Shown here piece by piece: positions 7,084 to 9,111 of a stretch of 64,000 nucleotides of DNA. Both the position numbers and the translations under genes were made by a program. This DNA is from Polyangiaceae bacterium (GTDB lineage Bacteria > Myxococcota_A > Polyangia > Polyangiales > Polyangiaceae), in assembly GCA_019637295.1 (NCBI GenBank), contig JAHBVX010000010.1:1-64000 (forward strand), in the 5' to 3' direction. Positions within the stretch are counted from its first letter, which is position 1. Every line of letters starts with the position of its first letter. Under the pieces are notes generated by a model. It searched no databases and was not told the origin of the DNA. It saw only the letters and a list, made by a program, of their open reading frames with translations.

Positions 7084-9111
7084 GGTGGTCGCGGACTCAC
7101 CAACCTTCAGGTAGCGGTTGTCGAACTGTCCGTAGTGCGCCAGCGCAGCCCCATCGAACGTGGGCCAGGCCATGGAGTCGGTCACGGAGTGCGCGCACTT
7201 CGTGCCGCCGCAGCCCTGGCGATAGATGGCGAACAGGTCGTCCAGAGAGGTGCGCTGTGCTGGCGGAGCGGTGTGAATGCTCCAGAGGAAGTTGTTCCAG
7301 TCCCATTGCACACCCCGTCCGTTGGCCAGGCACTCGGACTCGAGCCAGCGTACGGGGTAGGTGCAATCGGTGGCGACGGGTGGAGGCAGCGTGGTTCCGA
7401 GGAAGTGCACGTCCTTGTAGTACACGAACGTGCAGCCGCTCCCGCTGGCGTGGTTCATCAGCTTGCTCGCGTAGAAGTGCGCAAAGGCTTCGACGTGCGC
7501 GGTGGTGGTGGTCTCGCGGGACTGCAGGCAGTGCAGCTGGTTCGAGCTGGTAATGTGCTCGCAGCCGCATTCCGGCGGCGCCCCGTCCGTCTTCCACGCG
7601 CCGTAGTCTCGATAGAACACCCCCGAGCCGAAGCCGTGGATCACGTGGCCGAGCTCGTGACCGATCGTGTACTTGTAGTCGGTCGTCATGATGTACTGAC
7701 CCGTGAGGAGCTTCTTGTTGGACCTGCCGAACTTGATGGTTCCGGCGCCTGCGCAGGCGTAATAGCACTGGCCGTCCGCCTGACAGCAGTCGTCGTACAG
7801 CGTCACCGTGGTCGTGTTGGGTGCCGCGGGGAAGCCGTTGTCGGGTGTGACGAGGGCCAGACCCATCACCGCTGCCGTGTTGGCGTAAGCGAGGGGGAGG
7901 TGGCTGAGGTGGAAGTGGAGGTTCAGGGGGCTGGTGTTCGCGCTCGTCTTCACGAACGCGTTCGAGGTCGACGTGTAGCTCGCAGCCCCTCCGGTGCTGG
8001 GCACCGACTCGATGTCGATCTTGGACTCACCGCTCCGGAGCGTCGTGAACACGGTGAGCAGGTAGCTCCCGGTTTCCGCGAGCTGAACGAAAGGAGTGCA
8101 GCCCAGGGAGTTCAGGTGCCCCGCGAAGATGACCTCGGCCGTGTCGACGCTCCAGACCTGGGCAGACGCGAAGCGGGCCGGCTCGATGTTCCAGTCCTTG
8201 CTGGTCAGGTGGTCTTCGCCGAACCCCGAGTCCACGAATTTCGCCAGCCAGCTCCCGCAGAGCCGAGCCCGGTTTGGTCCAGGCGGGGGGATGTCGTACG
8301 AGTGGGTGGCGCTCGGGTCCGGCATCGAAGCGGGCCAGGGCTCGTTCGTGTCCGAGCCGCCCGAGTAGCGGATGGTGCCGCCGCCCGCGCCGTTCGGGGG
8401 CAGCCGGTCAACGGGGACGTAGCGATCGGTGACCCAGACGTCCCCGGCCACGTCCAGCAGTTCGGCGGCGAGGCTGTGAAGCCGTCGCCGCTCCAGCCGG
8501 GGGTCGCGGGGGTGGCGGAGGTCGCGGTAAGCGTTGCCAATGCCGTGGAACGTGACCGTGCTCAGCGCGTGGTCGAACGCTGCCGTGAGTCTTTCGGAGG
8601 TCACGGACAGCCGCTGCCCGTTCACGGTCACGCGTCCCTCCGCAAAGATCGTCGCTGGCGCCGAGTGGCTCCGCAGCGGAAAGCGGGCCGCTGCGATCGG
8701 GATCGTCCGCTGCTCTCCGCCGCGAAGGACGTAGGAGCCGTAGCTGCGGTTGGAGCGGCGCTGATCGAGGCCGAAGCCGACGAGCGTCAGCGAGACGTTC
8801 AGCGTCTCGCGGGTGGTGTTCGTCACCAGCAGGTTGACGAAGTGAGGCATCCGATGGGTGCCGCGAAGGTCGGGCTCCTCGAAGTGCACGACGATCGCTG
8901 GCGCGGTGCCGTACTCGTCTTGCTGCACGGGCGGGTCGCGGGGCGGGACCTCGTCATCGGGATGTGGTCTGCAGCCTGGCGCCGAGAGCAACAGGACGAG
9001 CACCACGAGGACGAGTCGAACCGTCTGGCACGCTGCGTGCGTGCGTGCGTGCGTGCGTGCGTGCGTGCGTGCGTGCGTGCTGTGCATACGTTCGTTCGGT
9101 GCTGCCCTCAT
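7066..9111 (-). CDS. Lipoprotein zinc metalloprotease (HExxH) with a tetranucleotide tract in its N-terminus
   Basis: This 681-aa protein carries the zinc-binding motif GHELGHVIHGFG at roughly residues 470-481. A Cys-rich region and many conserved Trp/Tyr follow, suggesting a secreted disulfide-bonded protease. ATG 9111 gives MRAAPNERMHS, then a (Thr-His-Ala-Arg)n repeat coded by a TGCG tract, then a hydrophobic segment and lipobox (VLVLLLSAPGC). A second in-frame ATG is at 9087. An upstream in-frame start at 9291 exists but its sequence looks non-coding. GGGG lies 7 nt before ATG 9111. The stop overlaps the SUMF gene start. Slippage in the tract would switch the gene on or off. The peptidase family cannot be named with confidence. 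Confidence 0.75.
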   Translation of the reverse strand: MRAAPNERMHSTHARTHARTHARTHAACQTVRLVLVVLVLLLSAPGCRPHPDDEVPPRDPPVQQDEYGTAPAIVVHFEEPDLRGTHRMPHFVNLLVTNTTRETLNVSLTLVGFGLDQRRSNRSYGSYVLRGGEQRTIPIAAARFPLRSHSAPATIFAEGRVTVNGQRLSVTSERLTAAFDHALSTVTFHGIGNAYRDLRHPRDPRLERRRLHSLAAELLDVAGDVWVTDRYVPVDRLPPNGAGGGTIRYSGGSDTNEPWPASMPDPSATHSYDIPPPGPNRARLCGSWLAKFVDSGFGEDHLTSKDWNIEPARFASAQVWSVDTAEVIFAGHLNSLGCTPFVQLAETGSYLLTVFTTLRSGESKIDIESVPSTGGAASYTSTSNAFVKTSANTSPLNLHFHLSHLPLAYANTAAVMGLALVTPDNGFPAAPNTTTVTLYDDCCQADGQCYYACAGAGTIKFGRSNKKLLTGQYIMTTDYKYTIGHELGHVIHGFGSGVFYRDYGAWKTDGAPPECGCEHITSSNQLHCLQSRETTTTAHVEAFAHFYASKLMNHASGSGCTFVYYKDVHFLGTTLPPPVATDCTYPVRWLESECLANGRGVQWDWNNFLWSIHTAPPAQRTSLDDLFAIYRQGCGGTKCAHSVTDSMAWPTFDGAALAHYGQFDNRYLKVGESATTYGVNH
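9034..9080. repeat. TGCG tetranucleotide microsatellite, about 11.75 units
   Basis: An uninterrupted 47-bp run of TGCG lies inside the 5' coding region of the metalloprotease, between its possible start codons (9111, 9087) and its signal peptide. Three units encode Thr-His-Ala-Arg. Because the unit is 4 bp, gain or loss of one copy shifts the frame, as in phase-variable contingency loci. Confidence 0.95.

Follow-up and report, generated by a model that had tools for sequence, protein, structure and literature searches.

Here, we describe a perfect tetranucleotide tract between the start codon and the signal segment of a predicted exported protease in a Polyangiaceae bacterium. The tract very probably acts as a slipped-strand switch of translational phase variation and belongs to a set of such switches within its myxobacterial family. 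A sequence-only reading had taken the site for a contingency locus, and phase variation by the tract is strongly supported by comparison: a paralogue carries its tract in the OFF phase, the same arrangement precedes other exported genes, and other repeat units take its place across the family.

The tract and the start of the protease gene

The window, i.e., the whole stretch of 64,000 nucleotides that was analysed, contains a perfect TGCG repeat of 47 bases (11.75 units) at positions 9034-9080 of the plus strand; the coding strand (minus) reads ACGC. The features around it are given below. Here and throughout, the term signal segment refers to hydrophobicity as judged by eye.

5912..7066, minus strand: FGE-sulfatase/SUMF1-like lipoprotein; its ATG overlaps the stop codon of the protease gene (TGATG)
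7066..9111, minus strand: exported HExxH protein of 681 aa, probable zinc metalloprotease, predicted from sequence
7645..7659, minus strand: HELGH zinc-binding motif, HExxH in aligned relatives
8971..9015, minus strand: hydrophobic signal segment LVLVVLVLLLSAPGC, assigned by eye; the end is lipoprotein-like, the lipobox is not canonical
9034..9080, minus strand: tetranucleotide tract of 11.75 units, encoding THAR repeats ahead of the signal segment; proposed slippage switch
9085..9087, minus strand: second ATG, in frame, without SD-like motif
9109..9111, minus strand: likely start codon ATG, in frame with the protease at the assembled length (phase ON)
9118..9124, minus strand: SD-like motif AAAGGGG, 6 nt before the ATG at 9109-9111

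No other period-4 run in the window is as long as the tract. The top five of 50 Markov-1 resamples reach 15-18 bases, so its 47 nt are far beyond chance length, as is typical of contingency loci. Three-unit matches of TGCG occur nine times (overlapping matches counted) versus 0.10 expected from a dinucleotide shuffle. As claimed earlier, about 11.75 perfect copies are thus located between the start codons and the signal peptide, the latter being assigned by hydrophobicity, and the two alternative ATGs ahead of the tract are indeed both in frame. The ATG at 9109-9111 is the sole candidate start with an SD-like motif within 110 nt before the tract. A genome-wide search with up to three mismatches finds the 24-nt leader containing AAAGGGG at two sites only, the window protease gene and its paralogue C12 (see below).

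The unit of 4 nt is not a multiple of three and sits in the 5' coding region of the gene. The expectation that gain or loss of a single unit would put the whole protein out of frame holds in silico, where removal or addition of one or two units leaves products of 94, 49, 53 and 98 aa (49-98 aa). Removal or addition of three units keeps the frame, with proteins of 677 or 685 aa. Upstream of the leader, a direct repeat of 50 nt occurs in 2.7 copies at window positions 9416-9551.

The probable protease and its neighbourhood

From its HELGH/HExxH motif, the window protein is probably a zinc metalloprotease. Of the seven rows in the alignment, six (counting the window protein) extend over this column, and all six have HExxH; the seventh does not reach it. 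The earlier designation as an exported metalloprotease agrees with the motif and the hydrophobic signal segment; comparison of the protein with Pfam, NCBIfam and PDB sequences gave no match. The mean pLDDT of its AlphaFold model, 34.7, is too low for use, and a protein scan of the genome contigs for named relatives of the protease gave none.

The overlap of stop and start codon (TGATG) with an FGE-sulfatase-like gene is also found at the C12 copy. Because both copies have it, the switch may govern protease and FGE-like lipoprotein via translational coupling, and the lipoprotein would probably be switched together with the protease. Farther upstream, window positions 10200-11600 hold a fragment that we take to be similar to an IstB-type ATPase, followed by a presumably tyrosine-recombinase-like ORF. 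Near the C8 tract introduced below (L037) lie what we take to be a recombinase C-terminus of similar kind and an ORF resembling an integrase core; all these names derive from motifs. Elsewhere in the window, positions 37492-37862 carry a tandem duplication of 201 nt (1.8 copies, 97% matches).

ACGC tracts in the same genome

ACGC tracts of at least four units occur at four places in the whole 7.65-Mb genome: C2, which is the window protease locus (11.75 units), and the loci C12 (7.25), C8 (9.5) and C20 (12.75). Each of the four tracts follows an ATG with SD and comes ahead of an exported protein's signal segment. With the unit numbers of the assembly, the protein is in frame (ON) at C2 and C20 and out of frame (OFF) at C12 and C8. 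C8 is subtilase-like and matches Peptidase_S8 weakly (E 0.0012); C20 encodes 1379 aa and likewise gives a weak match, to Kelch (E 0.00027). Neither match reaches the Pfam cut-off.

C12 is the paralogue of the window protein (76% identical). The two genes have the leader with its SD-ATG in common, and the 7.25 units of C12 leave the protein out of frame. Homologues lacking any repeat at this position had been named as evidence against a switch, and the sole close relative found, C12, does carry an ACGC tract. Among distant relatives of the window protein (27-39% identical), no repeat was found close to the gene starts, which says little here because their N-termini do not align with its own. 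In one of these genes (G010 C361, L005), the start resembles a plain signal peptide and carries no repeat. ON and OFF lengths thus both exist among copies and relatives (C2 ON versus C12 OFF), as one would expect of a contingency locus, the compared genes being paralogues and genes of other species.

A repeat census covered 2.064 Mb of the genome (5 kb masked), including the window. Four out of five arrays with units of 4, 5, 7 or 8 nt stand at starts that combine SD-ATG and signal segment. Two arrays of 10-nt units are not at such starts, and among nine G or C runs of at least nine bases none is clearly at a start. Dinucleotide arrays are CG/GC, except for two CT rows of one locus. The census added two tracts, ACTC/ACTCACGC at C1:130k (OFF) and CT at C1:242k (ON, with a frame of 920 codons). 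With about 1.2% of positions in comparable places, the chance of four out of five is about 1e-7. This figure is only indicative because the census was not blind: the stretches with the C2, C12 and C22 tracts, as well as those with the subtilase copies of C1 and C19, were picked knowing them.

Tracts and changing units across the family

Within the family, (ACGC)6 is found in 8 of 108 genomes with a total of 16 tracts, 13 of which have a start codon before them and a signal segment behind. An SD-like motif accompanies all but one of these 13 loci, the exception being G034. At G038 C265, leader and tract are present and the gene is cut directly after the tract; two further tracts do not fit the arrangement.

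Homologues of the C20 protein occur in 10 of the 108 genomes and those of the subtilase in 9, and the repeat unit at the tract site differs between them. For C20, we find CTCGT or TCTCG (G041, G042), AG (G041), poly-G (G001) and CACGCAG (G036), and for the subtilase CAAGC and ACTC (G000), GCATCTC (G037), and GGTTC and AGCACGC (G036). Homologues without a repeat are those of G045, G007 and G057. On this comparison of sequences, the recurring feature is that some non-triplet repeat separates start from signal, whichever unit it is made of.

Common leaders and a possible portable switch

With up to three mismatches allowed, the genome has exactly two copies of one 28-nt leader, the first before the ACGC tract of C8 and the second before that of C20, and the proteins of these two loci show no similarity to each other (best E 0.28). 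In genus g31, the start ATGGGTGGCATGAGKTT plus ACGC repeat precedes a nuclease-like gene (G037, G038) as well as an unrelated protein of 1636 aa (G036), and the 40 nt before the ATG of these starts are only 40% identical. Among paralogues, the nearest 40 nt of the leader are better kept than the 60 nt before: three C20-family copies of G037 are 85-97% identical over the former and 25-52% over the latter.

The identical leader of the unrelated genes C8 and C20 hints at a switch that is copied as a block. We tentatively suggest, at slightly less than an even chance, a portable switch made up of leader, SD, ATG and repeat, which would be transferred onto unrelated genes for secreted proteins, with the units turning over in place afterwards, and which would give rise to a combinatorial, clonally varied secretome. 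Convergence on short leaders instead of block copying may also account for the likeness.

Phases and selection on OFF copies

Phases were counted at 28 loci with a clear start, drawn from 9 genomes. The distance between start and signal segment, taken modulo 3, is 0, 1 and 2 in 8, 10 and 10 cases, respectively; paralogues in this count are not independent of each other. The signal anchors were set by eye, and starts were taken as ATG or GTG with an SD-like motif. G034 entered the count without such a motif, its upstream starts being in agreement. Left out were G036 C1:3554k (starts disagree), G039 (poly-G, start unclear) and G038 C265 (ACG in place of the first ATG, and a gene that ends abruptly behind the tract). 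Without the five loci whose frames break later, the split is 5/9/9, and it becomes 7/10/9 when two loci are dropped whose repeat is just G8, possibly by chance. G037 and G038 have six clear ACGC loci, every one of them in phase 1, which is odd under random phase.

Out of the 20 OFF loci, 16 belong to genomes other than that of the window; by their titles, no fewer than three of these genomes (G037, G038, G053) are metagenome assemblies. Frames of 651-1385 codons are kept at 15 OFF loci, three run past the end of the available stretch, and two are broken. By a simple counting method, dN/dS is 0.36 for C2 (ON) versus C12 (OFF), 0.22-0.30 among four OFF copies of the C20 family, and 0.11 between two OFF nuclease-like genes; it is higher (0.56-0.62) for the OFF C20-family copies versus the C20 gene of G000, to which they are 46-47% identical. 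Third-position GC of the compared OFF copies amounts to 0.85-0.88. The compared OFF copies thus look maintained under purifying selection and not decaying. OFF alleles that are kept as coding sequence, here with dN/dS of 0.11-0.30 between OFF copies, are again what a contingency locus is expected to show.

Alternative explanations

If translation began elsewhere, either at GTG or TTG codons upstream that lack an SD or at a TTG immediately behind the tract, the proteins would be expressed in every phase and the tract would only tune the leader or the n-region. At C12, two GTGs are in frame with the protein, 44 and 86 nt upstream of the tract, and a TTG stands close ahead of the signal segment; the listed ORF of C8 opens at a TTG just past its tract, and in-frame starts without SD occur at some OFF loci. 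However, the GTGs of C12 lack an SD-like motif (starts after tracts were judged by eye only), and the leader with SD-ATG is kept in OFF copies. Moreover, five loci (G037 C31, C59, C126 and C161; G038 C38) have a stop in the frame of the protein just before the tract, and none of them offers an ATG, GTG or TTG between tract and signal segment. We consider expression from such starts improbable. A passive repeat of stable length, with the out-of-frame copies being pseudogenes, would agree with the subtilase copies of C1 and C22, which are broken further downstream, and with that of C19, a 5'-truncated remnant. The long frames at 15 of the 20 OFF loci, the dN/dS values well below 1 together with the third-position GC, and the recurrence of differing units at one site in homologous genes speak against it and make it very improbable.

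Errors of assembly or sequencing could have produced the tract lengths and hence the phases, and at least three of the relatives are indeed metagenome assemblies. Such errors account for phases, but neither for the position of the tracts nor for their recurrence with different units or the common leaders, and we regard them as a highly improbable cause. Programmed ribosomal frameshifting or hopping on the repeat would yield protein from out-of-frame alleles, and the six clear ACGC loci of G037 and G038 would all require one and the same shift. But at G036 C2:48k a start that is nearly the same stands in frame 0, and no single shift serves all 28 loci because the phases are evenly spread, so that this reading is scarcely conceivable.

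Proposed mechanism

For the slippage switch, we propose the following course of events. The order read from the sequence is SD-ATG, a repeat of a non-triplet unit, and the signal segment of an exported protein, and only one phase in three connects the ATG to the protein. Replication slippage would gain or lose one unit at high frequency, and because the unit number changes that often, a clone would be a mixture of cells with and without the secreted protein. In the assembly, the window copy is in the ON state and its paralogue in the OFF state. The window switch would belong to a set that acts on exported enzymes and large exported proteins of the myxobacterial family, with units turning over between genes and genera.

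If this holds true, bacteria with large genomes would be betting on public goods, secreted proteases and nucleases among them, and division of labour and cheating become testable through sequencing of tract lengths. The position of the switch would be conserved while the repeat unit is replaced, and some gene copies that appear frameshifted may be temporarily OFF.

Relation to known systems

Repeat-driven phase variation has been described mainly in host-associated pathogens. The host group of the present tracts is known for predation and has large genomes. In the following, all statements on published systems refer to the accessible parts of the sources.

Neisseria pilC carries a poly-G tract in its signal-peptide region and undergoes slipped-strand translational phase variation (PMC13190605). 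The likeness lies in a non-triplet repeat within the signal-peptide-coding start of an exported protein and in the presence of two paralogues; pilC differs in being a homopolymer case for a pilus protein of a human pathogen, while here units of 1, 2, 4, 5 and 7 nt are found on predicted secreted enzymes and large exported proteins. NalP of Neisseria is likewise a phase-variable exported (surface) protease, but with poly-C in an autotransporter gene (PMC3723659), whereas here the proteins concerned are the subtilase C8, whose Pfam match is weak, and the window protein with its HExxH motif. In Haemophilus influenzae, tetranucleotide tracts are the main switches, accompanied by penta- and heptanucleotides; the units are others, with no 'ACGC' in the accessible text, and the genes are those for LPS, restriction-modification and adhesins (PMC2651432). 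A survey of homopolymeric tracts at the 5' ends of prokaryotic genes deals with frameshifting tracts early in the reading frame as well, but with poly-A and poly-T in 99 genomes, and 'myxococc' and 'sorangium' are absent from its accessible text (PMC2831843).

Phase variation in a myxobacterium is represented by the yellow/tan switch of Myxococcus xanthus, which differs in affecting more than 200 genes and for which the accessible texts name no repeat mechanism (PMC4880591, PMC3986340). It is the only case of myxobacterial phase variation among the literature matches listed, most subscription journals lying outside the coverage. A review from 2025, without 'myxo' in its accessible text, sees a gap to be filled for bacteria of soil and ocean (PMC11868660). 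The mechanism proposed here is thus of a known kind, while for the host group, the gene classes and the turnover of units we found no precedent among the matches listed.

Further arrays in and beyond the family

GTCTC arrays were found in 7 of the 108 family genomes. From ten with context, four are at starts (all in genus g33), four do not precede a signal segment, and the remaining two lie on cut stretches; outside g33, the arrays do not precede signal segments wherever the context is readable. G041 has at least ten GTCTC arrays of at least six units (contigs C6 to C261), two of which (C95, C113) are at starts. In L165 (G108), the octanucleotide GCGTGCCA is repeated 6.1 times about 400 nt before a subtilase match.

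Screening one genome each of 84,980 species for CATG followed by (ACGC)6 within 30 nt gave 27 stretches. We read 22 of them and left out L087, L092, L099, L100 and L104 as sites already read in the family set. Among the 22 stretches new to the analysis, the arrangement is clear in one, the Planctomycetota contig L096, and ambiguous in the Nannocystis contig L089. In L096, (ACGC)6 at 3311-3334 follows ATGCCCATTGA and is in frame with the prepilin-like segment FTLIELLVVIAIIA behind it, a similar-looking case beyond the family. Pseudomonas stutzeri NCTC11607 has three long ACGC arrays (L085, L101, L103), each directly after a common leader ending in CCATTACCATGAAAA, with open stretches of about 140-230 codons from the tract start in one frame.
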